Shown here: in pieces, positions 33,716 through 48,721 of the stretch
How positions within the stretch are numbered: the stretch's first letter is position 1
How the letters are laid out: each line of letters starts with the position of its first letter
Assembly (NCBI RefSeq): GCF_019655855.1
Contig: NZ_BPFX01000003.1
Coordinates: 186,001-250,000, forward strand
Direction: 5' to 3'
Origin: Pseudomonas paralcaligenes
GTDB taxonomy: Bacteria; Pseudomonadota; Gammaproteobacteria; Pseudomonadales; Pseudomonadaceae
Length of the DNA stretch: 64,000 bases
Notes under the pieces: generated by a model
Databases searched by the model: none
What the model was told of the DNA's origin: nothing
Seen by the model: only the letters and a program-made list of their open reading frames with translations
Translations under genes and position numbers: made by a program

Positions 33716-34135
33716 TAGTTGGAAAGAAACAGGAACCCAATCCGCGCAGCGGCAGAAAGAAACCACCAAGCAACGCGGAGCCGGAGTCCCCGTCAGGAGG
33801 CCGAGTGGAGGTGTTGCGTAGGGGGACGAGCCGCATGGATGCGGCGAGAGGCTTGAAGGGCCATGGATGGCCCTTGCAAGCCGGCCCCCGGAGCGGCACC
33901 GGAGGGAGGGAACCCGGAGCGAAGCGTAGGGCCGGATGCCGGGGTGGCCTTCTCTTTGGTTACTTTCTCTTGGCCACGCAAGAGAAAGTGACTCGCCCGG
34001 GGGGCGAAACCAGAAGTGTCCGAACACTCGGTAATCGGCCAGAAACAGCATCCCCGGATTTCATCCGGGCTACGGCCGCGCACCGACAGGCCGGTGCACG
34101 GCCCACGGTGCGCACGGCGCACCCTACGAGTACGT
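33716..34135. repeat. composite 400-bp intergenic repeat block
   Basis: The exbD-GST gap holds a Pseudomonas-type repeat unit: AAGAAACCACCAAGCAACGC, a GGGCCATGGATGGCCC palindrome (about 33859-33874), and a hairpin with arms TTACTTTCTCTTG and CAAGAGAAAGTGA around GCCACG (about 33959-33991), followed by ACTCGCCC. A GTAGGGTGCGC-type hairpin at 34106-34127 ends it. No coding signal is convincing, although open frames cross it in several directions. Confidence 0.6.
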
Positions 34136-34180
34136 GCAGCCGTTGATTGCGGCATAACTTTTTCCCCACGAGGAGCCACC

Positions 34181-34801: not shown

Positions 34802-34811
34802 GGACACGACC

Positions 34812-35807: not shown

Positions 35808-35884
35808 GCGTCAGGCTGTTCACTGGGGCGTGCGGGGCGGCTGGGCGGTGTTCCGATTGGGCGCGAAGCGTTGGCGTCAGGTCT

Positions 35885-35911
35885 GTTCGCGGACAAGTCC
35901 GCTCCCACAGG
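35885..35911. repeat. half copy of the GTGGGAGCGG REP element
   Basis: GTTCGCGGACAAGTCCGCTC followed by CCACAGG is a single REP arm in the 276-bp gap before the TonB receptor gene. The rest of that gap shows nothing clear. Confidence 0.6.
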
Positions 35912-36083
35912 GGCGTGTTCGCCATAACGACTGATCGCGTTCATGTGAGCGGCATTGGTGTCCGTGGCGGACTACGGCTTGTCCGGCCAGGCCCATCCTC
36001 GCCGCCCAGCGCTCCCTAGCATCGGCTCACCAGGCGAACAGTCGATTCGCCGGCGAAACCGCCAGTGCGCCAGGAGTATCCCC

Positions 36084-38414
36084 ATGACCCGCATCAGCCA
36101 CCGCCCGGCCATCGCCGGCGCCCTGCTCAAACCCCTCGGCATCGCCCTGCTGCTGGCCATGCCGCAGTTGCTCCAGGCGGCGGCGGAGGGGCCCGCCGAC
36201 GAGGCCGTCGTCGAGGCCGAGCCGACCCTCGGCAAGGTCACCGTCACCGCCCGTCGCCGCGCCGAGGACGCCCAGGCCGTGCCCACGCCGATCACTGCCC
36301 TCAGCGGCGCCGACCTGGAGAGCCAGAAGGTCTACCGCATCCAGGACCTGCAGCAGGCGCTGCCCAGCGTCAACGTCGCCTACGTCCACGCCCGGGTGTC
36401 CAGCCTGGCGGTGCGCGGCATCGGCAACAACCCGGCCAGCGACGGCCTGGAGGGCAGCGCCGGGGTGTACCTGGACAACGTCTACCTGGGCCGCCCCGGC
36501 ATGGCCGCCTTCGACCTGCTGGACATCGAGCAGCTGGAACTGCTGCGCGGCCCGCAGGGCACCCTGTTCGGCAAGAACACCACCGCCGGCGTGCTCAACA
36601 TCAGCACCCGCAAGCCCACCTTCACCCCCGAGCGCAGCCTGGAGATCAGCGGCGGCGAGCGCGGCTACTTCCAGGGCAAGGGCAGCGTCTCCGGCGGCCT
36701 CACCGACAGCCTGGCCGGGCGCCTGTCGTTCTACCGCACCCGCGAGGACGGCTACCTGGACAACGACCACGACGGCCGTACCCTGCTCGGCGGCGAGCGC
36801 GAGGGCCTGCGCGGCCAGTTGCTGCTGCAGCCGGACGACGACTTCAGCCTGCGCTGGATCAGCGAATACAACGAGGAGAACTCCAGCGCCGGCAGCTCGG
36901 TGATCTACGGCGGCGCGCAGAAGTTCTGGGACCGGGCGACCCTGGTCGGCGCCTCGCCGCGGATCGGCCGCAGCAACATCGACGCCCGGCAGAACGTCAG
37001 CGTGCACCAGAACGGCCACTCCCTGGAGGCCAACTGGAACCTGGCCGGCGGCTACACCCTGACCTCGATCAGCGCCTACCGCTACTGGCACTTCAACCCG
37101 GCCAACGACGCCGACCAGCTCGACGTGGCGGTGATCGACGACCTCGGCTACGAAGTCCGCGACCGCCAGTTCTCCCAGGAAATCCGCCTGGCCTCGCCCA
37201 GCGGCGGCGCCTTCGACTACGTGCTCGGCGCCTACGCCTTCAAGCAGGACCTGGGCAACCGCATCTTCACCGACCTCGGCCCGCTGGCCGACCTCAACCT
37301 GATCGGCTTCGACCTCGACGCGCTGAACGATGTCAGTACCAAGACCAACGGCAAGATCGACACCAACAGCTTCGCCCTGTTCGCCCAGGGCACCTGGCAC
37401 CTCACCGACAAGCTCGACTTCACCGCCGGCGTGCGCGGCACCTACGAGGAGAAGCAGGCGCGGGTCAGGCGCTTCGCTCCCACCGGCGGCGCGCCGGCCA
37501 GCGGCCTAGCCGCGATCATCCGCGACAGCCAGGTCGGCGCCTACGACTCCGGCGACCTCAGCCTGTACAACGCCGCGCCGTCGCTGCTGCTCAGCCTCAG
37601 CTACCAGTTCCGGCCCAACCTGCTCGGCTACGCTTCGCTGTCCCACGGCGAGAAGTCCGGCGGGGTCAACCTGGCGGTGGGCTCGGCGGCCCAGGCCGGC
37701 GCCGACTCCCTGCTGGTCGGCCCGGAGCGCGCCAACGACGCCGAGCTGGGCGTCAAGAGCACCCTGTGGAACAACCGCCTGCAGCTCAACGCCAACCTGT
37801 TCTGGACCGGCATCCACGGTTACCAGGCCACCACCTGGTACCAGCCGCCGGGCTCGCTGACCGGCTACCAGGTGCTGTCCAACGCCGGCAAGCTGCGCTC
37901 ACGCGGCCTGGAGTTCGAGGCCACGGCGCTGCCGGTGCGCGGCCTGACCCTGCGCTTCAACGGCTCCTACAACGACGTCACCTACCTGCGCTTCCAGGAC
38001 GCGCCGTGCCCGGCGGAAGTCGCCACCCTGGCGGGCGCGCCCGCCACCTGCGACCTGTCCGGCGAGCGCGTGGCCGGCGCCTCGAAGTGGATCGCCAACC
38101 TCAGCGGCGAATACGCCTGGCAGCTGGAACAGCGCCTGCAGCCCTATGTCGCGGCCGGCTACGCCTACCGCTCCGAGGCCGAGGGCACGCTGGACAACTC
38201 CGACCTCTCCCGGATCGACGGCTACGGCCTGCTCAACCTGGCCGCCGGCCTGCGCACCGACCTGGGCGACGGCCAGCTCGACGCCTCGCTGTGGGTCAGG
38301 AACGCCACCGACAAGGAGTACTACCTGGCCGTCGGCGCCGCCGGCAACGGCCTCTACACCGGCTCGCTGGGCCAGCCGCGCACCGCCGGCCTGACCCTGC
38401 GCTACGACTTCTGA
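36084..38414 (+). CDS. TonB-dependent outer-membrane receptor of the organosulfur cluster
   Basis: A 776-residue receptor. Signal sequence to about residue 33 (GIALLLAMPQLLQAAA), TonB-box-like LGKVTVTARR near 50, plug domain with RIQDLQQALPSVNVAY and LRGPQGTLFGKNTTAGVLNI (about 155-174), then a 22-strand-type barrel ending in Phe (LTLRYDF). No N-terminal signalling domain. CAGGAG precedes the ATG. The next gene, 7 bases on, is a DszA-like monooxygenase, so the ligand is probably an organosulfur compound, not a siderophore. This ligand is inferred from context. Confidence 0.88.
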   Translation: MTRISHRPAIAGALLKPLGIALLLAMPQLLQAAAEGPADEAVVEAEPTLGKVTVTARRRAEDAQAVPTPITALSGADLESQKVYRIQDLQQALPSVNVAYVHARVSSLAVRGIGNNPASDGLEGSAGVYLDNVYLGRPGMAAFDLLDIEQLELLRGPQGTLFGKNTTAGVLNISTRKPTFTPERSLEISGGERGYFQGKGSVSGGLTDSLAGRLSFYRTREDGYLDNDHDGRTLLGGEREGLRGQLLLQPDDDFSLRWISEYNEENSSAGSSVIYGGAQKFWDRATLVGASPRIGRSNIDARQNVSVHQNGHSLEANWNLAGGYTLTSISAYRYWHFNPANDADQLDVAVIDDLGYEVRDRQFSQEIRLASPSGGAFDYVLGAYAFKQDLGNRIFTDLGPLADLNLIGFDLDALNDVSTKTNGKIDTNSFALFAQGTWHLTDKLDFTAGVRGTYEEKQARVRRFAPTGGAPASGLAAIIRDSQVGAYDSGDLSLYNAAPSLLLSLSYQFRPNLLGYASLSHGEKSGGVNLAVGSAAQAGADSLLVGPERANDAELGVKSTLWNNRLQLNANLFWTGIHGYQATTWYQPPGSLTGYQVLSNAGKLRSRGLEFEATALPVRGLTLRFNGSYNDVTYLRFQDAPCPAEVATLAGAPATCDLSGERVAGASKWIANLSGEYAWQLEQRLQPYVAAGYAYRSEAEGTLDNSDLSRIDGYGLLNLAAGLRTDLGDGQLDASLWVRNATDKEYYLAVGAAGNGLYTGSLGQPRTAGLTLRYDF

Positions 38415-38421
38415 GGGAAAC

Positions 38422-39756
38422 ATGAGCAGACAACTGAGACTCGGCGCCTTCCTGATGGCCAGCGGGCACCACCTGGCGGCCTGGCGCCACCCCCGCGCCT
38501 GGGCCGGCGGCGGGGTGGACTTCGAGCACTTCAAGCGGGTGGCGCGGACCGCCGAGCGCGGCAGGTTCGACGCCATCTTCTTCGCCGACAACCTGGCCCT
38601 GCTCGGCCCGCCCGAGCTGGCCAGCCTGACCATCGGTGGCGACGTGCTCGACCCGCTGATCCTGCTCGCCGGCCTGGCCAGCGTGACCGAGCGCCTGGGC
38701 CTGATCAGCACGGTGTCGACCAGCTATAACGACCCCTACCTGCTGGCGCGCCGCTTCGCCTCGCTGGACCACATCTCCGGCGGCCGGGTCGGCTGGAACC
38801 TGGTGACCTCGGCCACCGACCAGGAGGCGCAGAACTTCGGCCGGGAGCGCATCGACGACCATGCCGACCGCTACGCCCGCGCCGAGGAATTCATCGACAT
38901 CGCCACCGGCCTGTGGGACAGCTTCGACGACGACGCCTTCGTCCGCGACAAGGCCAGCGGCCGCTTCTTCGACCCGGCCAAGGTGCACGTGCTGGACCAC
39001 CGCGGCGCCCACTACCCGCTGGTGCGCGGCCCGCTCAACCTGCCGCGCGGCCCCCAGGGCCACCCGGTGCTGGTGCAGGCCGGCTCCTCCGAGCCGGGCA
39101 AGGAACTGGCCGCGCGCACCGCCGAGGTGGTGTTCACCGCCCAGCAGACCCTGGCCGGCGCCCAGGCCTTCTACGCCGACCTCAAGGGGCGGCTGGACCG
39201 GTACGGGCGCACGGCGGACGAGCTGAAGATCATGCCCGGCATCTCGCCGGTGCTCGGGCGCACCCGGGCCGAGGCGGAGGACAGATTCGCCGAACTGCAG
39301 GAGCTGGTCGACCCGCGCCTGGGCCTCGGCCTGCTGGCCGGCATGGCTGGCGGTTTCGACCTGTCGCAGTACCCGCTGGACGGGCCGCTGCCCGAGCTGC
39401 CGGAGAGCAACGCGATGAAGAGCCGGCAGAGCCTGTTCATCGACCTGGCCCGGCGCGAGAACCTGACCATCCGCCAGCTCTACCTGCGCGTCGCCAGCGC
39501 CCGCGGGCACCACACGGTGATCGGCACGCCGGTCGAGGTGGCCGACGTGCTGGAGGAGTGGTTCACCCAGGGCGCGGCGGACGGCTTCAACATCATGCCG
39601 CCGTTCCTGCCCGACGGGCTGGACGACTTCGTCGACCTGGTGGTGCCGGAACTGCAGCGGCGCGGCCTGTTCCGCACCGAGTACGAAGGCCGGACCCTGC
39701 GCGACAACCTCGGCCTGAAACGGCCGGCCAGCCGCTACGCCGCGAAAGCCTCCTGA
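38422..39756 (+). CDS. DszA/NtaA/SnaA-family flavin-dependent monooxygenase
   Basis: A 444-residue luciferase-like (LLM) monooxygenase using FMNH2. It follows DszA (dibenzothiophene sulfone monooxygenase) through its length: FKRVARTAERGRFDAIFFAD, HISGGRVGWNLVTS (about 115-128), KVHVLDHRGAHYPLVRGPLN, GAADGFNIMPPFLPDG, and the C-terminal FRTEYEGRTLRDNLGL, which closely matches the DszA ending. DszA opens sulfone rings to a sulfinate. It needs a separate flavin reductase, not found in the window. Together with the DszB-like gene at 44456-45511 it suggests sulfone-to-sulfinate-to-sulfite chemistry. Confidence 0.87.
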   Translation: MSRQLRLGAFLMASGHHLAAWRHPRAWAGGGVDFEHFKRVARTAERGRFDAIFFADNLALLGPPELASLTIGGDVLDPLILLAGLASVTERLGLISTVSTSYNDPYLLARRFASLDHISGGRVGWNLVTSATDQEAQNFGRERIDDHADRYARAEEFIDIATGLWDSFDDDAFVRDKASGRFFDPAKVHVLDHRGAHYPLVRGPLNLPRGPQGHPVLVQAGSSEPGKELAARTAEVVFTAQQTLAGAQAFYADLKGRLDRYGRTADELKIMPGISPVLGRTRAEAEDRFAELQELVDPRLGLGLLAGMAGGFDLSQYPLDGPLPELPESNAMKSRQSLFIDLARRENLTIRQLYLRVASARGHHTVIGTPVEVADVLEEWFTQGAADGFNIMPPFLPDGLDDFVDLVVPELQRRGLFRTEYEGRTLRDNLGLKRPASRYAAKAS

Positions 39757-39766
39757 ATCAGGAGGC
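39748..39766. terminator. palindrome holding both stop codons of convergent genes
   Basis: GCCTCCTGA-A-TCAGGAGGC is a perfect 9-bp inverted repeat that contains the TGA of the monooxygenase (39754-39756) and the TGA of the convergent ATPase (39758-39760). Without a T-run it may still act as a short bidirectional stop. Confidence 0.5.
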
Positions 39767-40561
39767 TTCACTCCCCGTCAGTTCCTCCAGCAGCTTCTCC
39801 TTGAGGCGCTGCAACTGCGCCGACGCCCGCTCGCGCGGGTGCGGCAGGTCGACCCGCACCTCGTGGCGGATGCGCCCGGGGCGGGCGTCCATGACGATCA
39901 CCCGGTCGCCCAGGTAGAGCGCCTCTTCCACGTCGTGGGTGACCATGATCATGGTGCTGCGCTGCTGCACCCAGATGCGCTGCAGCTCGCGCTGCAGGTG
40001 TACCCGGGTCAGCGCGTCGAGGGCGCCGAACGGCTCGTCGAGCAGGAGCACTTTGGGCTGGGTGATCAGCGCCCGGGCGATGGCGGCGCGCTGGGCCATG
40101 CCGCCGGAGAGCTGGTGCGGGTAGGCCTGCTCGAAGCCGGTCAGGCCGACCAGGGCCAGGTGCTCGGCGATCAGCTCGGCCTTTTCCTTGCTGCCCAGGC
40201 GGCGGTTCTTCAGGGCCAGGGCGATGTTCTGCTCGACCGTCTTCCAGGGGAACAGGCGGTGGTCCTGGAACACGATGCCGCGGTCCAGGCTGGTGCCGGA
40301 CACCGGCTCGCCGTCCAGGCGGATCTGGCCCTGGTAGTCGTTCTCCAGGCCGACGATCAGGCGCAGCAGCGAGGATTTGCCGCAGCCGCTGGCGCCGACG
40401 ATGCTGACGAACTCGCCGGGCAGCACCTGCAGGTTGATGTTGTGCAGCACCGGCAGCGCCTTGCCGTCGATCCGGTAGGCCTTGTGCAGGCCGCGGATGT
40501 CGAGGGCGCCGGGTTGGCGCAGGTCGTTGCCGAGCAGTTGCGGGTCGAAGATGGCGGTCAT
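39758..40561 (-). CDS. SsuB/TauB-type ABC transporter ATP-binding protein
   Basis: A 267-residue nitrate/sulfonate/taurine-family ATPase. Walker A GASGCGKSS (56-64), Q-loop IVFQDHRLFPW, signature LSGGMAQRAAIARAL (about 152-166), Walker B VLLLDEPFGALD. It is the last gene of the minus-strand operon and 9 bp after the second permease gene. It energises import of a sulfonate-like compound. Confidence 0.9.
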   Translation of the reverse strand: MTAIFDPQLLGNDLRQPGALDIRGLHKAYRIDGKALPVLHNINLQVLPGEFVSIVGASGCGKSSLLRLIVGLENDYQGQIRLDGEPVSGTSLDRGIVFQDHRLFPWKTVEQNIALALKNRRLGSKEKAELIAEHLALVGLTGFEQAYPHQLSGGMAQRAAIARALITQPKVLLLDEPFGALDALTRVHLQRELQRIWVQQRSTMIMVTHDVEEALYLGDRVIVMDARPGRIRHEVRVDLPHPRERASAQLQRLKEKLLEELTGSEAS

Positions 40562-40570
40562 GGCGGTTAC

Positions 40571-41335
40571 CTAGCGACGAAGGTTGCGCCAGCGCAGCAG
40601 GTGCCGGCTCAGGCGCGAAAACAGTTGGTTCATGGCGTAGCCGAGCAGGCCGATGCAGAGGACGGCGATCAGCACCACCTCCATGCGCGAGCCGGTCTCG
40701 GCGTTCATCATCAGGTTGCCCAGGCCCATGCCGGTGGAGAGGAACAGCTCGCAGCCCACCGAGCTGACCCAGGCGAAGGCCAGCGCGTGCAGCAGGCCGT
40801 TGGACAGGCTCGGCAGGGCGCTGGGCAGCTGCACGTGGACGAAGCGCTGCAGCGGGCCCAGGGCGTAGATGCGGCCCACCTCCTGGTACTGCTTCTCGAC
40901 GTGGCTGAAGCCCTCGAAGCTGTTCAGCACCATCGGGTAGAAGGCGGCCAGCGAGACGATCAGCACCTTGGAGAACTCGCCGCTGCCGAACCACAGGGCC
41001 AGCAGCGGGATCAGGCCGAGGATCGGCACCTGGCGCAGGGTGTGGTAGAGCGGCGCGAGCAGGCGCTCGGCGATCCGCGAGTGGGCCATCAGCGCGCCCA
41101 CGGCGAAGCCGGCGAGCACCCCGTAGAGCAGCCCCAGGCAGGTGCGCTGGAGGCTGGCCAGCACGCTCAGCCACAGCTCGCCGGTGGCCAGCAGCTGCTC
41201 CAGGCCCTCGCCGATCTTGCTCAGCGGGACGAAGGCGTAGGCATGGCTGTCGCCCTGGCGCGACATGTACTCCCAGGCGGCGATCAGCAGCAGCGGCAGG
41301 AGCAGGCCGCGCAACGACAGGAGGAGTTTCTTCAT
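40571..41335 (-). CDS. SsuC/TauC-type ABC transporter permease 2
   Basis: A 254-residue permease with six hydrophobic segments and the EAA loop EVGRIYALGPLQRFVHVQLPSA (in two parts, about 150-171). Its start at 41335 overlaps the end of the other permease gene by four bases; the longer open frame above it belongs to the neighbour in another frame. The two different permeases probably form a heterodimer. Confidence 0.9.
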   Translation of the reverse strand: MKKLLLSLRGLLLPLLLIAAWEYMSRQGDSHAYAFVPLSKIGEGLEQLLATGELWLSVLASLQRTCLGLLYGVLAGFAVGALMAHSRIAERLLAPLYHTLRQVPILGLIPLLALWFGSGEFSKVLIVSLAAFYPMVLNSFEGFSHVEKQYQEVGRIYALGPLQRFVHVQLPSALPSLSNGLLHALAFAWVSSVGCELFLSTGMGLGNLMMNAETGSRMEVVLIAVLCIGLLGYAMNQLFSRLSRHLLRWRNLRR

Positions 41336-42093
41336 GAGCGGGGTTTCCAGCGGAACAGGTGTTTTTCCAGCAGGCGGAAGCCGTGGTCGAGGGTGAAGCC
41401 GACCAGGCCGGTGACCACCACGCCGACCATCACGATGTCGATGCGCATCATCTGCCGGCTCAGCTCGATCAGCTGGCCGAGGCCGCTGTCGGCGGCCAGC
41501 AGCTCGGCCGCCACCAGCACCATCCAGGCGCGGCTCAGGCTGATGCGCAGGCCGGTGACGATGGGCGGCGCGGCGGCGGGGAAGGCCACGTCGCGCAGCA
41601 GGCTCCACAGCGGCAGGCGGTACACCGCCGCCACGTCGAAGTAGCCGCGCGGGATGCCCTTGACGCCCTCGCTGGTGGCCAGCGCCACCGGGAAGAAGGC
41701 GGCCTTGACCACGATGAGGATCTTGAAGGTCTCCTCGACGCCGAAGAACAGGATGAACATCGGGATCAGGGCGATCGAGGGAATCTGCCGCAGGGTGTGG
41801 AACAGCGGCGCGCAGTACGCCTCGACGTTCTTCGACAGGGCCATGGCGGTGCCAAACAGCAGCCCGCCGAGGGCGCCGAGGGTGAAGCCGATGGCCAGCC
41901 GCGACAGGCTGTTCTGCAGGTGCTCGCGCAGCTCGCCGCTGCCCAGCAGCTCGACGAACGCCTCGTACACGTGCTGCGGCGGCACCAGCAGTTGGGCCGG
42001 GTACCAGCCGGCCTGGGCGACCAGGGCCCAGGCGGCGAGCAGGGCCAGCGGCGAGGCGAACCAGCTCAGGCGGTTGAAGGTGGCGGTCGGCAT
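41332..42093 (-). CDS. SsuC/TauC-type ABC transporter permease 1
   Basis: A 253-residue permease of the sulfonate/nitrate family. First membrane helix FASPLALLAAWALVAQAGW (12-30), EAA loop DVAAVYRLPLWSLLRDVAFPAAAP (about 150-173, in parts) and SRAWMVLVAAELLA. It lies between the MFS gene (one base away) and permease 2 (overlap), so it is co-transcribed with both. Confidence 0.9.
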   Translation of the reverse strand: MPTATFNRLSWFASPLALLAAWALVAQAGWYPAQLLVPPQHVYEAFVELLGSGELREHLQNSLSRLAIGFTLGALGGLLFGTAMALSKNVEAYCAPLFHTLRQIPSIALIPMFILFFGVEETFKILIVVKAAFFPVALATSEGVKGIPRGYFDVAAVYRLPLWSLLRDVAFPAAAPPIVTGLRISLSRAWMVLVAAELLAADSGLGQLIELSRQMMRIDIVMVGVVVTGLVGFTLDHGFRLLEKHLFRWKPRS

Positions 42094-42094
42094 C

Positions 42095-43291
42095 TCAGCC
42101 CTCCAGAACGACGTTGGCGGGTGCGCGGCGGGCCTTGCGCAACCAGCAGAAAGCGGCCACCAGCAGCACCAGTGGAATCCACACGAAGAACAGGTTGTTG
42201 AGCCCCACCAGTTGGCTGATCGCGCCGCCGAGCAGGGCGCCGGAGAAGCTGCCGAGCATGCCGGCCAGGTTGAACAGGCCGGCGATCTTGCTCTTGTCCA
42301 CCGGGTGCTCGCCGAGCTGGGCCATGTTGACCAGGTGCACCAGCGCCGCGGCGGTGCTCAGCAGCACGCCGCCGGCCGCCAGTAGGGCGTAGCCGTGGGC
42401 GCTGCCGATCAGCAGCAGGCCGAGCACGGCGGCGACCAGGCCGGCCAGGTAGGCGAAGCGCCGGCCGAAGTGCTCGACCAGGTAGCCGAGGCCGAACAGG
42501 CCGAGCACCGAGGCCAGGCCCTGGACCATCACCAGGCTCACCGCCTGGCTCTGCGACAGGCCGGCGCTGTTCATCGCCAGGAGGATGACGAAGGTGCCGA
42601 ACAGCGCAGCGGTGGCGCCGGAGAGCAGCTCGATCAGGCAGCTCTCGGCGATCTCCACGTGGCCGAGCATGGCCAGCACCTGGGCCAGCATGCCGCCGTC
42701 CGCGCCGGCCTCGGGAACGACGGCGGGCTCGACCTGCTCGGCCTCCCAGAAGCCCAGGCTGTACACCGCCATCAGGCCGAAGCACAGGCCGATCACCACG
42801 AAGCCGAGGGTGAAGCTGCCGCCGCTCAGCCAGTTGCCCAGCAGCGGGCCGAGCAGGCCCATGCCGAGGGTCAGCGAGCCGCGGTACCAGCCGGCCTTGT
42901 CGTTGCCGATGCGCCGCAGCTGGCGCAGGAAGGCGCTGTTCATGGCGACGATGCGGAAGGGGATGCACAGGCCGATCAGCAGGCGGATCGCCGCCAGCCA
43001 CAGCCAGCCGCCGAACAGCGGGATCAGCAGGTTGAGCAGCATCGGCCCGAGGCTGGCGAGGAAATACACCCGGCGTGCGCCGAAGCGGGCGATGACGAAG
43101 CCGGCGGGCAGGGTCAGCAGGACCATGCCCAGCGACTCCATGGCCGCGATGATGCCGAGCTGCAGGGCGTTGGCGCCGATCTCGATGGCGTACAGGGTGG
43201 TGACGATCTTCGCCATGCCGATGGTGGCGCCGCTGAAGGCGGCCAGCAGCATGAAGCTGGCGAGGAAGGCGCCGGGCCTAGATCGCGACAT
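42095..43291 (-). CDS. MFS transporter
   Basis: A 398-residue 12-helix major facilitator: N-half with GIIAAMESLGMVLLTLPAGF and ARFGARRVY (the MFS loop 2-3 motif, about 65-73), long central loop AEQVEPAVVPEAGADGG near 185, C-half with YLVEHFGRRFAYLAG. It starts inside the end of the DszB-like gene upstream (14-base overlap). It could export desulfurised product or sulfite, or import substrate; the direction is not visible. Confidence 0.83.
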   Translation of the reverse strand: MSRSRPGAFLASFMLLAAFSGATIGMAKIVTTLYAIEIGANALQLGIIAAMESLGMVLLTLPAGFVIARFGARRVYFLASLGPMLLNLLIPLFGGWLWLAAIRLLIGLCIPFRIVAMNSAFLRQLRRIGNDKAGWYRGSLTLGMGLLGPLLGNWLSGGSFTLGFVVIGLCFGLMAVYSLGFWEAEQVEPAVVPEAGADGGMLAQVLAMLGHVEIAESCLIELLSGATAALFGTFVILLAMNSAGLSQSQAVSLVMVQGLASVLGLFGLGYLVEHFGRRFAYLAGLVAAVLGLLLIGSAHGYALLAAGGVLLSTAAALVHLVNMAQLGEHPVDKSKIAGLFNLAGMLGSFSGALLGGAISQLVGLNNLFFVWIPLVLLVAAFCWLRKARRAPANVVLEG

Positions 43292-44330
43292 TGACCTTCT
43301 CCAGCAGTTGCTCCAGCGGCGCCGGGTCGATCCACTGGCGCACGTCGAAGCCGGCCGGGATGAAGTCCCAGCGTTGGAGGAAGTCGGTCAGGTCCTGCAG
43401 CGCGTGGATGGAGCGCTCGGCCAGGTTGGTCTGCAGGCGCAGGTGGGCGTCCTCGCCGTAGGCCCGCGCCACCCAGTACTCGCTGGTGTTCAGCTCGCGG
43501 GCGAGGAAGCGGCGGGTCTCCTCGGGGTGGGCCCAGCTCCACTGCTCGGCGCGCAGCACGGTCTCGAGGATCAGCACCGCCGCCTCGAAGTGCTCGTCGA
43601 GCAGGTGCTGGTCCACGGTCAGGGTGCGCGGCGTGCCGATGTTGGAACGGATCAGCGGGTCGGGGTGCGAGCCGACGTCGGTCACCACCCGCAGGCCGAA
43701 CTCGTCGGCCAGGTGCAGGCCGTGGGCGCCCTTGAGGAAGATCGCGTCGATGTCGCCGCGCAGCAGGCCGATCAGCTCGTTGTTGCGCCGCCGCACGCGG
43801 CCGCCGAGGCTGACCTGGGCGCCGTGCACGTGGCGCACCGGGTTGTCGCTGTAGGTGCCGCCGTAGGGGTAGTCGACCAGCTCCACGTCGGCCACCGTCA
43901 GGCCTTCCAGGCTGAGGGCGTTCTCCAGGCCGCGGATGGCCTGGGCGCGGGTGAAGTCGATCTGCACGTTGGCCCACTTGGGCACGCCGAAGCGGCGGTT
44001 GCGCAGGTCGCGGATGTCCTTCACCGGGCTGTCGTGGCTGGTGACGATCAGCTGCACCTCGTCGCTCCACGACAGGCCCAGCACCCGGGTGGCGCGGCCG
44101 CTGGCGCGGGCCCAGATCGCCGGGATGTTGCCGCCGTGGCGCACCGAGTTGTGCAGGTGATGATCGAAGTGCGCCTCGCGCACCTCGCGGTCGGAAGATT
44201 CGCGCAGCGCCTGGATGCGCGTGCCGAACGGCCGGAAGGCCTGGGCCAGACGCCCGGACTCCACGGCGACGCCGAGCCCTGTGGGTACCGGACTGTGGGT
44301 GTACCAGAGGGTATCGAGAGGTTTGTTCAT
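43278..44330 (-). CDS. DszB-like protein with Ser in place of the catalytic Cys
   Basis: A 350-residue protein with the periplasmic-binding-protein type II fold of DszB (hydroxybiphenyl sulfinate desulfinase) but with no signal peptide. The N-terminal motif LWYTHSPVPTGLG has Ser13 where DszB has its nucleophile Cys27; His54 (EAHFDH) and Arg64 (SVRHGGNIP), which correspond to DszB His60 and Arg70, are kept. The protein contains no cysteine at all. It is a tandem paralogue of the gene upstream and overlaps the MFS gene by 14 bases. Automated annotation would call it an ABC substrate-binding protein; a non-catalytic binding or altered-chemistry role is inferred. Confidence 0.75.
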   Translation of the reverse strand: MNKPLDTLWYTHSPVPTGLGVAVESGRLAQAFRPFGTRIQALRESSDREVREAHFDHHLHNSVRHGGNIPAIWARASGRATRVLGLSWSDEVQLIVTSHDSPVKDIRDLRNRRFGVPKWANVQIDFTRAQAIRGLENALSLEGLTVADVELVDYPYGGTYSDNPVRHVHGAQVSLGGRVRRRNNELIGLLRGDIDAIFLKGAHGLHLADEFGLRVVTDVGSHPDPLIRSNIGTPRTLTVDQHLLDEHFEAAVLILETVLRAEQWSWAHPEETRRFLARELNTSEYWVARAYGEDAHLRLQTNLAERSIHALQDLTDFLQRWDFIPAGFDVRQWIDPAPLEQLLEKVNVAI

Positions 44331-44358
44331 GTAGCGTGTGGTTCCAGAGGTTGCTCGG

Positions 44359-44450
44359 TGCCCCTGCGGGAGGGGGCTGGGGTGAGAGGCGGCTCCGGTG
44401 TTGCCGAAGACACTCCCTCACCCCCGGCCACTCTCCCGGGGGGAGAGGGG
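44359..44450. repeat. CTCTCCC...GGGAGAGG repeat, two units, between the DszB-like genes
   Basis: CCCCTGCGGGAGGGGGCTGG and the inverted unit CACTCTCCCGGGGGGAGAGG fill the 125-bp gap between the tandem paralogues, as in the urt operon. Confidence 0.78.
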
Positions 44451-44455
44451 AGATG

Positions 44456-45511
44456 TCAGCCCGCCTGCTTGGCGACGGCGCTGCGCAGGGTTTCCAGCGG
44501 GCGCGGGTCGATCCAGTCGCGCACCGAGAAGCTCTGCGGGATGAAGGACCAGCGCTGGAGGAAGTCGGTGAAGTCCTGCAGGGCGACGATGGAGCGCTCG
44601 TCGAGGTTGGTGCGCAGGCGCTGGTGGGCGTCCTCGCCGTAGGCCTGGGTCACCCAGTACTCGCTGCTGTTGGTCTCGCGGGCCAGGTAGCGGCGGGTGT
44701 CGTCCGGGTGGGTCCAGGCCCATTCCTCGGCGCGCAGCACCGAGGCGAGGATGCCGACGGCGGCGTCGTAGTGGTTGTCCAGCAGGTTGAGGTCGACGCT
44801 CAGGGTGCGCGGGGTGCCGTTGTTGGCGCGCACCAGCGGCTCCGGGTGCGAGCCGGTGTCGATCACCGTGTGCAGGCCGAACTGCTGGGCCAGTTGGGCG
44901 GCGCTGGCGCCCTTGAGGAAGATCGCGTCGACCTCGCCGCGCAGCAGGCCGACCAGCTCGGCGTTCTGCCCGCCGCGACGGCGGCCGCCGAAGGTGGAGA
45001 CGCCGCCCACGGTCTGCGCCGCCTCGTCGCTGAAGGTGCCGCCGTGGAGGTAGTCGACCAGCTCGACGTCCTTCACTTCCAGGCCTTCCAGGCGCAGGGC
45101 GTTCTCCAGGCCGCGGATGGCCTGGGCGCGGGTGAAGTCGATCTGCGCGCTGGCCCAGTTGGGCAGGCCGAAGCGGCGGCCCTTGAGGTCCTTGACGGTC
45201 TTGATGCCGCTGTCCGGCAGGGTCAGGATCAGCTGCACCTCATCGGCCCAGGACAGGCCGATCACGCGGGTCTCGCGGCCACTGGCGCGGGCCCAGATGG
45301 CCGGGATGTTGCCGCCGTGGCGGACCGAGTTCTGCAGGGTGTGGTCGAAGTGCGACTCGCGCACCGCCTGGTTGTCCGACTCGCGCAGCGACTTGATGCT
45401 GGTGCCCTGGGCGCCCAGGGTTTCTTCCAGCCAGCCTTTCTGCACGGCGATGCCGAGGCCGGTCGGGACCGGGCAGCGGGTGTACCAGAGCGTATCGAGC
45501 GGTTGACTCAT
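44456..45511 (-). CDS. DszB-like sulfinate desulfinase homologue with intact catalytic residues
   Basis: A 351-residue protein without signal peptide. The N-terminal block LDTLWYTRCPVPTGLGIAVQ matches DszB; Cys13 is the only cysteine of the protein, as Cys27 is in DszB. His54 (ESHFDHTLQ) and Arg64 (SVRHGGNIPAIWARASG) keep the DszB H-x9-R-x-GG-x-IP spacing. DszB hydrolyses an aryl sulfinate to sulfite; this protein may act on a different sulfinate. GGAGAG lies 7 bases before the ATG at 45511; a longer open frame has no signal peptide and no family match. First gene of the operon, with a sigma-54 type promoter 84 bp upstream. Confidence 0.8.
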   Translation of the reverse strand: MSQPLDTLWYTRCPVPTGLGIAVQKGWLEETLGAQGTSIKSLRESDNQAVRESHFDHTLQNSVRHGGNIPAIWARASGRETRVIGLSWADEVQLILTLPDSGIKTVKDLKGRRFGLPNWASAQIDFTRAQAIRGLENALRLEGLEVKDVELVDYLHGGTFSDEAAQTVGGVSTFGGRRRGGQNAELVGLLRGEVDAIFLKGASAAQLAQQFGLHTVIDTGSHPEPLVRANNGTPRTLSVDLNLLDNHYDAAVGILASVLRAEEWAWTHPDDTRRYLARETNSSEYWVTQAYGEDAHQRLRTNLDERSIVALQDFTDFLQRWSFIPQSFSVRDWIDPRPLETLRSAVAKQAG

Positions 45512-45594
45512 GGGGTGACTCTCCAAATGGGACGTGACGGCGGATGGCAAACACGGGCGGCGGATGCGCCCCGTGGACGGCTGCCAGGGGAAAG

Positions 45595-45610
45595 TGCAAC
45601 CCCCATGCCA
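45595..45610 (-). promoter_or_regulatory. sigma-54 type promoter for the DszB-like/ABC operon
   Basis: On the minus strand TGGCATGGGGGTTGCA matches the -24/-12 consensus TGGCACRN4TTGCW at all but one position, with the required GG-N10-GC spacing. It is 84 bp upstream of the ATG at 45511. Confidence 0.7.
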
Positions 45611-45697
45611 CGGCCCGGCTAGACCTGTGCGGGCCACGTGGCACAAGGGCTGCGGGGTTTCAGTGGCGTTCAGGGAGGGGCCGGGCCGAGGGTCGTT

Positions 45698-45725
45698 GCT
45701 GCTGGGGCAACACCCCGGCAGCAGC
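45698..45725. promoter_or_regulatory. inverted repeat upstream of the sigma-54 promoter
   Basis: GCTGCTGGGG-CAACA-CCCC with GGCAGCAGC completing the second arm; it lies about 90-115 bp upstream of the -24 element, in the range for an enhancer-binding protein. It shares TGTTGC/GCTGCTG elements with the repeat at 47493-47519. Confidence 0.35.
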
Positions 45726-45880
45726 GCCTTGCGTGTTTCCAGGCAGTCAGGCCGGCAACCCCGCGGTGCTCGCGCCTACAGGCATGCAACGCATGACGGA
45801 CATGTGGGTGAAAAAAGGCCATGTCCCCGTGACGTGTTGCAGACGCTGCAACTGTCCCGCGGAAGCGGCCTGCTACTGGA

Positions 45881-45968
45881 TTCCCGCCTGCGCGGGAATG
45901 ACGGCTTCGGAAGAAACTAGAAACTCCCCCCCTTACATCGTCATCCCCGCGCAGGCGGGGAACCAGAA
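45881..45968. repeat. CCTGCGCGGGAATGACG inverted repeat pair
   Basis: GGATTCCCGCCTGCGCGGGA and the inverted unit ATCCCCGCGCAGGCGGGGAA. The surrounding 45.8-46.02 kb resembles 59.0-59.38 kb, including GCGTGTTGCAGACGCT or close variants and AACAT/ACATCT-type tails. The 45512-46191 gap holds only repeats and regulatory sites. Confidence 0.75.
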
Positions 45969-46044
45969 GGGGTCAGAGCACTGCGACATCTAACGGCGGC
46001 ATAGCCCAAAAAAGGCTATGCCCCCCGTTGAAGGCTGCATACCT

Positions 46045-46106
46045 TGTGGGAGCGGATTTATCCGCGAATGCCGCGCCAATCGGAATGCCGCCCGGCCGCT
46101 CCCACA
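46045..46106. repeat. GTGGGAGCGG REP pair (REPIN-like)
   Basis: TGTGGGAGCGGATTTATCCG and the inverted partner CGGCCGCTCCCACA form a doublet like that at 1071-1134. Confidence 0.75.
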
Positions 46107-46144
46107 AAGGCAGGATTACGCCACACGTAACGGCTACATGGCCC

Positions 46145-46171
46145 AAAAAAGCCCCGCGCGGGGCGGGGCTT
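46145..46171 (-). terminator. terminator of the SsuD-like gene
   Basis: On the minus strand a GC-rich stem (AGCCCCG...CGGGGCT) is followed by TTTTTT, 20 bases after the stop codon. Confidence 0.8.
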
Positions 46172-46191
46172 CGGGGTGGGCGCGCGGGCGC

Positions 46192-47352
46192 TCAGACCAC
46201 CGCCTTCAGCTCCTCGCGGGCCTCGGCCGGCTGGCGCGCGTGGACCAGCGGCAGTACTTCCTGGCCGATGCGCAGGGCCTCTTCCAGGTGCGGGTTGGCG
46301 GCCAGGATGAAGGTCGAGAAGCCGGCGTCGCGGTACTCGGCCAGGCGCTCGGCGACGTTCTCGTGGCTGCCGACCAGGCCGATGGTCGGCCCCGGCTTGG
46401 CCTTGCCGAAGCCGGCCCACAGGTTCGGCCCGATCACCAGATCGTCGAAGCGCTCGCTGCCCTGGTGGTAGGCGGTCTGGCGCGCCGCGCCGACCGAGTC
46501 GGAGCCGGTGGCGAAGTGCTGGATGGCGGCGGCGGTCCGGGCATCGATGCGCTCGTACTGGCGGCGCAGCTCGCTCCAGGCGGCTTCCTCGGTCTCGCGG
46601 GCGAACAGGTCGATGCGGATGCCGAAGCGCACGCTGCGCCCCTGCTTGTCGGCCAGCTCGCGCACGCGCTCGATGTGCGGCCGGAGCTTGTCGATCGGCT
46701 CGGCCCAGTTCAGGTACACGTCGGCGTGGCGCGCGGCCACGTCCAGCGCCGGGTCGGAGAAGCCGGAGAAGTACACCCCGGGCTTGCGCTCATGGCGCAG
46801 GTTGGCCGGCAGCGAGCCGTTCTCCAGCTGGTAGATGTCGCCCTGGTAGCTGAACTGCTCGTTCTCCCAGAGGCCCTGGATGATGTCGAGGAACTCGCCG
46901 GTGCGTTGGTAGCGCTTGTCGTGTTCGAGGAAGTCGCCGTTGGCGCGTTGGCTGGCCGGGTTGCCGCCGGTGATGATGTTCCACTCCAGGCGGCCGCGGC
47001 TGAGGTTCTGCAGGATCGCCGCCTGCTGCGCCGCGTAGGCCGGCAGGGTCCAGGTGGCCTGGAAGGCGATCAGGAACTTGATCCGCCGGGTCTCGCGGGC
47101 CAGCGCCGCGGCGGCGATCCACGGCTCGGGACCGGTCGGCAGCAGCGCGCCCTCGAAGCCGGCCAGCTCGGCGGCCTTGGCCACCTGGGCGACGTAGTCG
47201 ATGTAGGTGAAGCCGTCCGGCTCGCCATTGGGCAGGCGGCCGGGGGCGATGTTGCCGGGACGGTGCCGGGCGACGCCGCGGTTGTTCTTGTCCGAGGCGA
47301 TGTGCGGGCCGTCGCTGCCAAGCGGCAGGCGCCAGAAGAATTCGGTGCTCAT
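46192..47352 (-). CDS. SsuD-family FMNH2-dependent alkanesulfonate-type monooxygenase
   Basis: A 386-residue LLM flavoprotein. MSTEFFWRLPLGSDGPHIAS is a family start; DGFTYIDYVAQVAKAAELAG, IKFLIAFQATWTLPAYAAQQ (about 90-109), SRGRLEWNIITGGNPASQRA (about 117-136) and the C-terminal FSTFILAANPHLEEALRIGQ match SsuD relatives. SsuD cleaves alkanesulfonates to aldehyde and sulfite. It lies upstream of and co-directional with the DszB-like operon, with its own sigma-54 type promoter and terminator, and diverges from the aldolase-like gene. Substrate unknown. Confidence 0.88.
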   Translation of the reverse strand: MSTEFFWRLPLGSDGPHIASDKNNRGVARHRPGNIAPGRLPNGEPDGFTYIDYVAQVAKAAELAGFEGALLPTGPEPWIAAAALARETRRIKFLIAFQATWTLPAYAAQQAAILQNLSRGRLEWNIITGGNPASQRANGDFLEHDKRYQRTGEFLDIIQGLWENEQFSYQGDIYQLENGSLPANLRHERKPGVYFSGFSDPALDVAARHADVYLNWAEPIDKLRPHIERVRELADKQGRSVRFGIRIDLFARETEEAAWSELRRQYERIDARTAAAIQHFATGSDSVGAARQTAYHQGSERFDDLVIGPNLWAGFGKAKPGPTIGLVGSHENVAERLAEYRDAGFSTFILAANPHLEEALRIGQEVLPLVHARQPAEAREELKAVV

Positions 47353-47409
47353 GGGTCACTCCAGTGCGATGCGCAGGTGGCCGCCGTGTGCGGCCCTGGC
47401 ACGGACGGG

Positions 47410-47425
47410 TGCAACCGCTATGCCA
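47410..47425 (-). promoter_or_regulatory. sigma-54 type promoter for the SsuD-like gene
   Basis: On the minus strand TGGCATAGCGGTTGCA has GG-N10-GC spacing and one mismatch to the consensus; the -24 and -12 cores are the same as those at 45595-45610. It is 58 bp before the ATG. Confidence 0.7.
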
Positions 47426-47492
47426 GCGCCACGGGCCGCGCCGGCGCTGGGCTCGTGGCGGGCGCGCCGGCCCAGGTGCGTGCCCAGCAACA

Positions 47493-47519
47493 CCCGGCCA
47501 GCAATCGCTGCTGACCGGG
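47493..47519. promoter_or_regulatory. inverted repeat between divergent sigma-54 promoters
   Basis: CCCGGCCAGCA-ATCGC-TGCTGACCGGG is an 11-bp palindrome with one mismatch, about midway between the promoters at 47410 and 47598. That is a fitting place for a shared enhancer-binding-protein site. The binding protein is not in the window. Confidence 0.5.
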
Positions 47520-47597
47520 CAGCAGGACTGCCTCTGGAGCAGCAACGGGGCGCTCTTTGTTTCGGGTAATTCCTTTTCAATCAACGACTTGTGCCGC

Positions 47598-47613
47598 TGG
47601 CACAGGAACTGCT
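47598..47613 (+). promoter_or_regulatory. sigma-54 type promoter for the aldolase-like gene
   Basis: TGGCACAGGAACTGCT matches TGGCACRN4TTGCW except for one base at the -12 element, with GG-N10-GC spacing, 63 bp before the ATG. It overlaps a small palindrome TGTGCC-GCT-GGCACA. Confidence 0.65.
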
Positions 47614-47675
47614 GAAGGCTCGGCAACGCCGGGGCCGGGCCCCGGACCGTTCACTGCTCAAGAAGGACAGATTCG

Positions 47676-48413
47676 ATGACCAGCATCAGCCTCGATACCC
47701 AGCAACGCGCCTACGTCGACCAGGCCAAGCGCGACTTCGCCAAGGCCTACCGCGTGCTCAAGGAAAGCCGCACGCTGACCGCCACCAACACCTACCAGGC
47801 CTACCTGCGCGTGCCGGACAGCGAATTGGTGGTGGCCCTGCACGCGCCGAGCCCGTGGGCCGACGACGAGGAAATCCGCGCGGTGGTCGCCAGCTACGAC
47901 GGCGTGGTGGCCCTCGACGAGACCGTCGAAGGCACCTCGCCGCTCAGCGGCAGCAAGTCCGGCGGCAACGGCAAGCGCTACGCCGCGGTGTTCCAGAACC
48001 GCCCGGAGGTCAACGTGGTGATCCACGTGCACACCCCCTACCTCGGCGGCTGGGCCAGCGCCCACCGGGTGCTGCCGATCCGCTACGCCGCGTCGCAGCG
48101 CGTCACCCTGGCCCGCGAGCTGCCGATCTACATCGACCGCCGCCAGCAGGAGGCGGATTTCATCGTCGAGAAGATCGCGGAGAACCCGCACACCCCGGCG
48201 ATCCTCGAGGCCAACGGCGGCGCCACCTTCTGGGGGACCGGGATCATCCAGGCGTCGAAGCTGATCCTGCTGATCGAGGAGGGCGCCTACTTCCAGGGGC
48301 TGGCCGAGCTGTTCGGCGGCTCCCAGGAATTCGGCCCGGGGGTGCTGGAGCAGCAGTGGAAGATGACGGGGCTGTGGGCGCAGGGGCAGAAGTTGCTGGG
48401 GGTGGCGGCCTGA
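47676..48413 (+). CDS. class II aldolase/adducin-like protein with altered metal-site residues
   Basis: A 245-residue protein of the class II aldolase/adducin superfamily. The HxH of the zinc site is present in VNVVIHVHTPYLGG (about residues 110-123). The usual third ligand in the NHG motif is replaced: the aligned segment reads AILEANGGATFWG, so His becomes Gly. The usual SSE-type catalytic acid before the HxH is replaced by SGSKSGGNGK. It is divergent from the SsuD-like gene and likely handles the carbon product of desulfurisation, or has a non-aldolase role. Both are inference. Confidence 0.8.
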   Translation: MTSISLDTQQRAYVDQAKRDFAKAYRVLKESRTLTATNTYQAYLRVPDSELVVALHAPSPWADDEEIRAVVASYDGVVALDETVEGTSPLSGSKSGGNGKRYAAVFQNRPEVNVVIHVHTPYLGGWASAHRVLPIRYAASQRVTLARELPIYIDRRQQEADFIVEKIAENPHTPAILEANGGATFWGTGIIQASKLILLIEEGAYFQGLAELFGGSQEFGPGVLEQQWKMTGLWAQGQKLLGVAA

Positions 48414-48505
48414 TCGGGGCTGGCTGTTGAAAAAGCCCTGACAGCTTCGGCAACTGCTGGCCGGCCTGGCAGGGCGGACGCCCGGCGAGTGCTGTGCCTG
48501 GCGAT

Positions 48506-48530
48506 CCGGGCCGTCAGGCCCGGGGCCCCT
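48506..48530 (+). terminator. possible hairpin after the aldolase-like gene
   Basis: CCGGGCC-GTCA-GGCCCGG followed by GGCCCC and TTT. It is about 90 bases past the stop in a 308-bp gap where nothing else is clear; strength uncertain. Confidence 0.35.
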
Positions 48531-48721
48531 TTGGCAGGCACCTGTTCGCGAATGGTGGCGGCTCCCAAGAAGCTGGCCCTGGCTGCATGCGCAAATACCT
48601 GACCATGCTCATGCCATGCAACGAGGCAGTGCTTCTAGTGGCCCCACATGCTCCGGACTGGGAGAGACAATCGACTCCTGCAGGCCTTAGGCACATTCGC
48701 AACGCTTGACCTGGGTGCCGC

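Follow-up and report, generated by a model that had tools for sequence, protein, structure and literature searches.

The window analysed here is a 64,000-nucleotide stretch of contig NZ_BPFX01000003.1 of Pseudomonas paralcaligenes. The genes that a sequence-only reading had assigned to a single 12-kb system for organosulfur scavenging all lie at 36084-48413 (Table 1), but they split into two units and the notion of one system is not borne out. The system proper (39758-48413) encodes an SsuB-type ATPase, two SsuC-type permeases, an MFS carrier, two DszB-like proteins and an SsuD-like monooxygenase, together with a divergent aldolase-like gene. The second unit (36084-39756) consists of a TonB receptor gene and an NtaA/DmoA-family gene formerly read as DszA-like, and it is not conserved with the operon. 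The importer and carrier that had been put forward as dedicated transport are present, in support of that part of the proposal. No sigma-70-like promoter was detected by consensus in 39000-48700, and no Rfam match exceeded its gathering score in 34000-52000.

Table 1. Genes and sequence features at 36084-48413 of the window.
Feature	Position	Strand	Remarks
P0003, TonB-dependent receptor	36084..38414	+	separate unit
P0004, NtaA/DmoA-family monooxygenase	38422..39756	+	separate unit
P0005, SsuB-type ATPase	39758..40561	-	operon end; present in 50/64 Pseudomonadaceae loci
P0006, second SsuC-type permease	40571..41335	-	present in 50/64 loci
P0007, SsuC-type permease	41332..42093	-	present in 50/64 loci
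P0008, MFS transporter	42095..43291	-	overlaps Ser twin by 14 bp
P0002, DszB-like tandem twin	43278..44330	-	homology to DszB; Ser13 replaces catalytic Cys
P0009, DszB-like (DszB1)	44456..45511	-	Cys13-His54-Arg64; no signal peptide seen
Spacer	45512..46191		680 bp with repeats, between SsuD-like gene and DszB1
Sigma-54-like site TGGCATGGGGGTTGCA	45595..45610	-	before DszB1, inside spacer
Terminator-like hairpin	46151..46164	-	3' of SsuD-like gene; scan gave 3 such sites against 2.8 expected by chance
P0010, SsuD-like, presumably FMNH2-dependent monooxygenase	46192..47352	-	SsuD family, below SsuD cut-off
Sigma-54 -24/-12-like site TGGCATAGCGGTTGCA	47410..47425	-	before SsuD-like gene
Sigma-54 -24/-12-like site TGGCACAGGAACTGCT	47598..47613	+	before aldolase-like gene
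P0011, class II aldolase/adducin-family	47676..48413	+	divergent from operon

Conservation was assessed in 149 Pseudomonas genomes and in 80 loci (L001-L080) drawn from 159 relatives, 64 of them from Pseudomonadaceae and 16 from outside this family, with genes called by a rough codon-usage script. Among the genomes, DszB-like, SsuD-like and aldolase-like families occur in 20, 21 and 20, respectively, and the three coincide in the same 20; in the additional genome, G032, the SsuD-like gene is present but DszB and aldolase are missing. Co-occurrence across Pseudomonas, as anticipated for all eight genes, hence holds for these three families but does not extend to the NtaA/DmoA-family unit. A close SsuD-like gene is absent beside the DszB pair in five of the 64 Pseudomonadaceae loci (L005, L006, L008, L033 and the short L016) and is found in 0 of the 16 others. 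The MFS gene is not universal either, being present at 55% or more in 21 of the 64. Among the strains that carry the operon is P. capeferrum WCS358 (L074). The spacer between the SsuD-like gene and DszB1 measures 10-25 bp in 50 of the 53 loci where both genes are neighbours, as opposed to the long spacer seen here. The parts discussed here lie on contigs C3, C10, C29 and C31 of this genome. C29 has genes for a TonB receptor like those of the relatives' clusters, for an MsuE-like reductase and for a binding protein that is orthologous (84%) to the one in these clusters.

Sigma-54-like sites are a conserved trait of this system. The site before the SsuD-like gene recurs at a distance of 55-83 bp in every one of 51 loci (including that of the window), as opposed to 3 of 288 control genes and a mean of 0.05 of 51 in shuffled sequences; these 51 loci comprise only SsuD-like ORFs beginning with MSTEFFW or MTTEFFW and having 200 bases upstream, and the scan used a position window. 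An initial scan had a loose control, in which 148 of 780 other ORFs scored 13 or more, DszB ORFs were not excluded and many starts were rough. Upstream of the aldolase gene the site is seen in 27 of 50 cases. Within the spacer, bases 82-146, around TGGCATGGGGGTTGCA, resemble the aldolase/SsuD-like promoter region of a related locus (L032). The receptor, activator and binding protein genes on C29 score only 12, 12 and 9 of 15. As judged from sequence, the conserved promoter would be compatible with induction under sulfur limitation, though it is no proof of control by SfnR or sulfate.

Both DszB-like proteins are relatives of DszB rather than ordinary binding proteins, and the claim that two such proteins are encoded here is confirmed. 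DszB is the best solved-structure match for both, at an identity of only 24-26%. A profile of 48 family members matches DszB with 125.8 bits (E 1.5e-35), as opposed to 27 bits (E 1.6e-5) for SsuA. In Foldseek searches DszB entries occupy ranks 1-3 for both predicted models (pLDDT 90.9 and 90.0), followed by SsuA and TauA, with which the fold is shared. Placement of the models among ordinary nitrate/taurine binding proteins, which the sequence-only reading had named as evidence against itself, was therefore not observed. Residues C27, H60 and R70 have been singled out in DszB, the R-X-G-G motif is shared by its homologues and the C27S mutant is inactive (excerpt of PMC6100217). In P0009, C13, H54 and R64 align with these three residues. 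Among 204 DszB-family ORFs, a set that was not de-duplicated and that counts the window's genes again in loci from the same genome, R-x-G-G (including R70 and G72-G73 by DszB numbering) is kept in all 204, the H60 position in 198 and the C27 position in 134.

The second DszB-like protein departs from DszB at precisely this last position, as its Ser13 is the same change as that of the inactive mutant. The Ser form makes up one clade, is under purifying selection and has its Arg-Cys changed jointly to His-Ser. It follows the SsuD-like gene without a Cys sister in three of the 20 genomes (G009, G126 and G129), where a distant Cys-type relative lies on the same contig; the 80 loci were retrieved with the Cys protein and are thus unable to reveal genomes with the Ser form only. 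The twin retains the pocket His and Arg but not the proton-donating Cys; most likely it would bind the substrate, or a sulfinate related to it, and not perform the DszB reaction, or else use another proton donor. We tentatively suggest, at somewhat less than even odds, that Pseudomonas keeps a natural "C27S" DszB, either as a dedicated sulfinate-binding protein (a carrier, sensor or monooxygenase partner) or as a desulfinase that draws on a new proton donor. It would belong to a Gram-negative branch of the DszB family that is under sigma-54 control and takes sulfur from some compound. The twin constitutes a natural experiment on the single residue known to be indispensable.

The remaining two enzymes only partly bear out their earlier assignments. 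P0010 does belong to the SsuD family, but it scores 307.6 bits against an SsuD equivalog cut-off of 518 bits and its active site is changed. At the positions that we take to be the SsuD active-site residues (C54, R226, H228, R297, Y331 and H333), R226 and H333 are kept, while H228 is D, R297 is K and Y331 is N in all 61 sequences, P0010 included; C54 is absent in 60 of them and the remaining one is not covered at that position. SsuD-type enzymes normally free sulfite unaided, and a desulfinase would hence be needless if P0010 worked like SsuD; the altered active site is the sole hint that it may act otherwise. The divergent gene is likewise of the aldolase II family, with a member in each of the 20 genomes that harbor the DszB-like gene (close, at 75% or more, in six, and distant, at 48-52%, in 14). 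Class II aldolases have three Zn-binding histidines. The P0011 family lacks this full set: HxH and N-G-G are each conserved in 95% or more of 58 sequences, but N-G-G aligns with the H-H-G (third histidine motif) of 8ix6, itself a weak best solved match (E 0.056).

Taken together, these results point to 39758-48413 as a sigma-54-controlled organosulfur-scavenging operon in which sulfinates are desulfinated by DszB-type chemistry as part of an SfnR-like response to sulfate starvation, a reading to which we assign a probability of roughly 0.58. Organosulfur scavenging with DszB-type chemistry had been proposed from the sequence alone, and it is supported here by profile, residues and models. From the gene content we infer a route in which an organosulfur compound would enter through the SsuBC-type importer, and perhaps also the MFS carrier; a candidate binding protein and TonB receptor are encoded on C29. 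A reductase, for instance the MsuE-like protein of C29, would provide FMNH2 to the SsuD-like flavin monooxygenase, which would oxidise a C-S bond and yield a sulfinate. The Cys-type DszB relative might then desulfinate this product through the DszB mechanism, providing sulfite for cysteine synthesis, and the aldolase-like protein could handle the carbon product. The relatives' loci also contain sulfur genes, namely SfnB-like genes, MsuE above cut-off, an SsuA-like protein and a sigma-54 activator. Moreover, among the relatives, a Sphingobium plasmid carries arylsulfatase and ssuD genes, and sulfurtransferase and cysteine dioxygenase genes lie near a Variovorax member.

Three other explanations have to be weighed. 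The DszB-like proteins might serve the SsuBC importer as its binding proteins and not be enzymes at all, as suggested by their fold, shared with SsuA and TauA, by weak SsuA_fam matches of 72.1 and 70.6 bits (plus NMT1 for P0009), by the lack of any other binding-protein gene in the 36084-48413 block and by plasmid records that annotate relatives as ABC substrate-binding proteins. Yet both scores fall far under the SsuA_fam cut-off of 163.5 bits, and Cys-His-Arg and R-x-G-G are kept. There is also too little room for a signal peptide, since the distance from start to Cys/Ser is 12 residues in P0009, P0002 and 130 of 202 ORFs (starts chosen by rule); none was recognized by eye in either protein, and the nearest earlier P0009 start adds nine residues that are not signal-like. 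The SsuA-like proteins of the same loci form a separate clade (support 100/100), even if the long DszB branch (3.48) makes the exact place of DszB in this tree uncertain, and a protein of this kind is encoded on C29. Finally, no SsuC-type genes lie beside the Ser form within the stretch read of G009, G126 and G129. Hence, we consider this role unlikely.

It is somewhat more conceivable, if still improbable, that the SsuD-like enzyme alone frees sulfite, as its relatives usually do, and that the DszB-like pair carries out a different step, with either the carbon skeleton or some other sulfur compound as its target. THI5, which shares the fold, performs unusual chemistry and its structures were also matched by the models; in three genomes the SsuD-like gene is accompanied by the Ser form only, and the aldolase family tracks the DszB-like gene. 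Against this stand the closeness to DszB in both sequence and structure, the changed SsuD positions and the existence of DszB relatives with NtaA-family or acyl-CoA-dehydrogenase-family (DszC/SfnB type) oxygenase genes but without this SsuD-like gene. The least probable option is the original eight-gene system, with P0004 producing the sulfinate and its TonB receptor importing the substrate. The genes do abut, an NtaA/DmoA-family gene adjoins the DszB-like gene in L078 and shares the locus in L005, L006 and L008, and another lies two genes from a DszB-like gene on C31. However, the DszA entry 5tlc ranks sixth (332 bits), behind 7e36 (391 bits), 3sdo (369) and three YtnJ/MoxC entries (362), which leaves the DszA-like identity of P0004 weak. 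Its orthologues at 75% or more occur in four of 149 genomes, two of them without a DszB-like gene, and the wider family is only loosely associated with that gene (p 0.03). The receptor reaches at most 31% identity in the 80 loci; in a near relative (G013) the closest orthologues of both genes reside on another contig, with the same regulator gene, and the unit itself has no sigma-54-like site. We thus reject this system, and with it DszA as the first step of C-S cleavage; among the oxygenases, it is the SsuD-like enzyme that is conserved.

DszB is a slow step of fuel biodesulfurization (excerpt of PMC12168087). In the excerpts of PMC12316311, PMC10179380 and PMC10253294, "sulfinate desulfinase" designates cysteine sulfinate desulfinase only, and neither DszB nor desulfinase occurs in the main text of PMC13352529. 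"Alkanesulfonate monooxygenase" genes, not named, are enriched in three SDS degraders (excerpt of PMC6107682), whose species are represented among loci L034, L045 and L052. Work on DszB has been based on a small number of enzymes, most of them actinobacterial. New candidates come from a diverse branch in Gram-negative bacteria that has kept the active site, and this branch suggests that bacteria scavenge sulfur by a natural route of sulfinate release.

Several known systems share components with this operon. The atsACBR-sftR-atsK-sftP sulfate-ester cluster (excerpt of PMC3596284) likewise groups a TonB receptor, an ABC importer and sulfur enzymes, but these are sulfatases instead of desulfinases. 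The sfn/msu dimethylsulfone regulon of Pseudomonas resembles it in the sigma-54-like promoter, in SfnB-like and, in a few loci, MsuE neighbours and in the logic of converting a sulfone into a sulfinate, methanesulfinate being the product of SfnG (excerpt of PMC8234197), for which this genome has no match above cut-off. That regulon relies on MsuC to oxidise the sulfinate and on MsuD for the cleavage, whereas a desulfinase is proposed here. The alkanesulfonate system ssuEADCB also combines an SsuBC-type importer with an SsuD-family monooxygenase; the present operon differs in its two permeases, the lack of SsuA and SsuE, the unmet SsuD cut-off and active-site changes of its monooxygenase and the DszB-like pair. 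With the dszABC/bds 4S pathway of Rhodococcus and Gordonia it shares the DszB fold, C27-H60-R70, R-x-G-G and a flavin monooxygenase in the operon, but in place of DszC or DszA orthologues it has an SsuD-like enzyme, and it adds importer, MFS and aldolase-like genes, a sigma-54-like promoter and a second, Ser-type DszB.

The ten genes across 36084-48413, assigned here by family profile scans with cut-offs, had been read from sequence alone as one 12-kb organosulfur system. All the genes are present, but, judging by their distribution among relatives, the block is two units, with the TonB receptor P0003 and the monooxygenase P0004 standing apart from the DszB-like operon. Among 80 named loci fetched with P0009 (of 159 relatives; 64 from Pseudomonadaceae and 16 others), no match covering at least half of the query exceeds 31% for P0003 or 52% for P0004. 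Orthologues of P0004 at 75% or more occur in 4 of 149 genus genomes (G000, G013, G011 and G085), and neither G011 nor G085 has a DszB-like match at the limit used. In the close relative G013, contig C33 holds P0003 and P0004 together with the regulator gene ahead of them and additional genes from the left side of the window, and the DszB operon lies on a separate contig, C42. A paralogous receptor-monooxygenase pair is carried by contig C29 of the window's own genome, its monooxygenase matching P0004 at 62%.

Gene clusters of the window and of two other contigs of the same genome
Feature	Coordinates	Strand	Arrangement
P0003 (TonB receptor), P0004 (NtaA/DmoA-family monooxygenase)		plus	tail to tail with SsuB, 1 bp apart
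P0010 (SsuD-family), P0009 (Cys-type DszB-like, DszB1), P0002 (Ser twin), MFS carrier, two SsuC-type permeases, SsuB		minus	in this order
P0011 (aldolase II-family)	47676-48413		divergent from SsuD-like gene
Regulator preceding P0003 (AraC-type by eye), P0003, P0004	34812-39756		own unit in near relative
Siderophore-type TonB receptor, putative FecR and FecI genes	48722-52621		apparently unrelated to operon
C31, second DszB cluster	L106:9015-15134		NtaA/DszA-type monooxygenase, aldolase-like gene, Cys-type DszB relative, divergent TonB receptor
C10 start	L107:96-4866		two SsuD-like genes, nitroreductase, ABC exporter; in or beside DszB cluster in relatives

Co-occurrence across Pseudomonas, proposed as a check in the same sequence-only reading, holds for the families of P0009, P0010 and P0011 and not for P0004. 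The three match in 20, 21 and 20 of the 149 genomes and together in the same 20 (Fisher p below 1e-23, which overstates independence because the genomes are related). P0009-type (Cys or Ser form) and P0010 matches share a contig in all 20, with gaps of 20-89 bp in 15 and of 262, 683, 1110, 3968 and 3980 bp in the other five. The aldolase-like link is looser than that between DszB-like and SsuD-like genes: a close P0011 (at least 75%) is found in only 6 of the 20, and the remaining 14 have a relative at 48-52%, kilobases off, beside a more distant DszB relative; in G139 the distant aldolase relative is not on the contig of the SsuD-like gene. G032 retains P0010 next to part of a TonB receptor and has neither DszB nor aldolase. 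Of the 64 Pseudomonadaceae loci, 59 contain P0010 (at least 75%), 50 have SsuB and the two permeases, and 21 have the MFS carrier; P0010 at that level is in none of the 16 other loci, and P0002 has no match at 1e-100 in 368 other genomes of the class, outside the genus. The aldolase-like family retains HxH, but at least 95% of 58 sequences have N-G-G where the third histidine motif would stand.

The DszB-like proteins might instead group with ordinary binding proteins, an outcome that the first reading had itself contemplated. The fold is common to all of these proteins, and the argument is therefore carried by ranking, residues and the missing signal peptide. Structure searches with AlphaFold models of P0009 and P0002 (pLDDT 90.0 and 90.9) place DszB entries at ranks 1-3 for both (TM 0.70-0.76), followed by SsuA, TauA and THI5-type proteins. 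DszB is also the best solved-structure match of both in a single-sequence search, and a profile built from 48 relatives gives it 125.8 bits, against 27 for SsuA. Ten SsuA-like proteins of the same loci split in the tree from DszB and the DszB-like ORFs with 100/100 support, the place of DszB itself being unsure because of its long branch. According to PMC6100217, C27 is critical in DszB and C27S inactive, H60 and R70 seem to bond the substrate, and R-X-G-G is conserved among homologues. Of 204 ORFs, taken without de-duplication, 134 have C at the Cys27 position, 67 have S and 3 have R; 198 have H at the His60 position, and Arg70 and both R-x-G-G glycines are found in all 204.

A naturally Ser-substituted DszB twin is the bold part of the result. 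Residues 26-27 (DszB numbering) read RC in 134 of the 204 ORFs, HS in 67, HR in 2 and CR in 1; the Ser form, found in 67 of 166 ORFs of Pseudomonadaceae loci and 0 of 38 elsewhere, is a single clade (100/100; 10 of 10 Ser rows in the tree). Eight positions (R12H, C13S, W27R, A49E, S53A, E193D, V194I and T215V, numbered on P0009 after removal of 14 padding residues) separate the 67 from 84 close Cys forms, each state being shared by at least 90% of its group. Against three relatives, dN/dS ranges from 0.16 to 0.26 in the Ser form and from 0.16 to 0.27 in the Cys form. All 67 Ser ORFs of the P0009-fetched loci come after a Cys sister, the form on which these loci were selected. The Ser form stands alone after the SsuD-like gene in G009, G126 and G129, where the contig also carries, at another place, a Cys-type relative that is more distant; therefore the Ser protein is not merely a subunit of the Cys sister, nor is that sister always needed beside the SsuD-like gene. 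G007 has both forms, and the other 16 of the 20 genomes have two close DszB-like matches each, by match count.

Against cut-offs of 518 bits for SsuD and 383 for SfnG, P0010 reaches 308 and 153 bits. Aligning 61 close sequences, P0010 included, to E. coli SsuD (the crystal numbering is shifted by one) reveals that 60 lack the active-site position C54 through a deletion and one does not cover it, and that H228 is replaced by D, R297 by K and Y331 by N in all 61, with R226 and H333 retained. MsuD and SsuD have active-site residues in common, loop V295-G300 is close to the sulfonate ligand, and SfnG converts dimethylsulfone to methanesulfinate (PMC8234197). We infer that P0010 would be inactive on simple sulfonates, and it may take a neutral substrate, as SfnG or DszA does; here lies the weakest link of the argument.

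All of 51 loci, that of the window among them, have a sigma-54-like -24/-12 site 55-83 bp upstream of the SsuD-like gene, in 18 different sequences; the frequency is 3 in 288 for other genes and 0.05 in 51 for dinucleotide shuffles. Such sites also precede the aldolase-like gene (27 of 50) and the SfnB-like gene (8 of 25). Scored in the window's own genome as single genes, with no control set, they reach 13-14 of 15 before the DszB gene and TonB receptor of C31, the first SsuD-like gene of C10 and the MsuE-like gene of C29, and score lower before P0003 (10) and the C29 receptor (12), activator (12) and binding protein (9). Of 53 loci with the SsuD-like and DszB genes as neighbours, 50 have a gap of 10-25 bp between them; in the window, a 680-bp repeat-bearing spacer separates the two, and DszB1 has its own sigma-54-like site, lying in a stretch similar to the aldolase/SsuD-like promoter region of L032. 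SfnR of Pseudomonas putida is reportedly a CysB-regulated, sigma-54-dependent activator of sulfone use, in work attributed to Endoh (2003, 2005) and Kouzuma (2008). C29 encodes a short sigma-54 activator (341 aa), 88% to one in L013, adjoining a TonB receptor and a binding protein.

Rough gene calling on 63 loci with full flanks reveals TonB receptors of one family in 48 and of a second in 24, an SsuA-like binding protein in 28, SfnB-like genes in 24, sigma-54 activators and nitroreductases in 6 each, and MsuE and NtaA/DszA-type genes in 4 each; representative SfnB-like and MsuE neighbours score 389 (cut-off 431) and 254 bits (cut-off 212). Three DszB-like genes of a Sphingobium plasmid lie together with ssuABC, three genes that bear the name ssuD, one gene of the aldolase family, an arylsulfatase and a Fis-family regulator. 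The S. meliloti plasmid pSymA has a DszB relative accompanied by an acyl-CoA-dehydrogenase-family and an NtaA/DmoA-family gene, and in Variovorax one precedes a sulfurtransferase, a cysteine dioxygenase and a cystathionine beta-lyase. More distant relatives on rhizobial and Variovorax plasmids (L088, L089 and L090) lie near acyl-CoA-dehydrogenase-family genes; L088, also with an NtaA-family gene, is possibly an A-B-C set in a symbiotic bacterium. The SDS degrader Dha-51 is the type strain of its species. An enrichment of alkanesulfonate monooxygenase genes is noted in PMC6107682 for three SDS degraders; loci L034, L045 and L052, which come from their species, all have the DszB pair and the SsuD-like gene.

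In the window's own genome, the C31 cluster, with sigma-54-like sites and a DszB relative at 39% to P0009, is a closer fit than the window to the DszA-DszB-TonB arrangement proposed earlier; its monooxygenase, like P0004, scores higher for YtnJ/MoxC (309 bits) than for the DszA entry (263). The activator, TonB receptor and SsuA-like protein of C29 (L113 and L114) are close to those of relatives' DszB loci, and a separate row there holds an msuE-like gene, a candidate MsuC, an activator and an SsuD-family gene. From gene content, the DszB cluster seems dispersed in this genome.

We favor, at a probability of about 0.58, a sigma-54-controlled organosulfur-scavenging operon, a reading made slightly less secure by the third Ser-only genome and the looser aldolase link. 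Two rivals, in which the DszB-like proteins are binding proteins of the importer or the SsuD-like enzyme alone releases sulfite, have become marginally more likely. The operon is conserved and probably under sulfate-starvation control. Among the open-access papers listed, with subscription papers and preprints outside this scope, none deals with DszB-like proteins from Pseudomonas or Proteobacteria. The parts of the operon do have precedents, in the dsz/bds, ssu and sfn/msu systems and in ats-sft, which has its own TonB receptor (PMC3596284).
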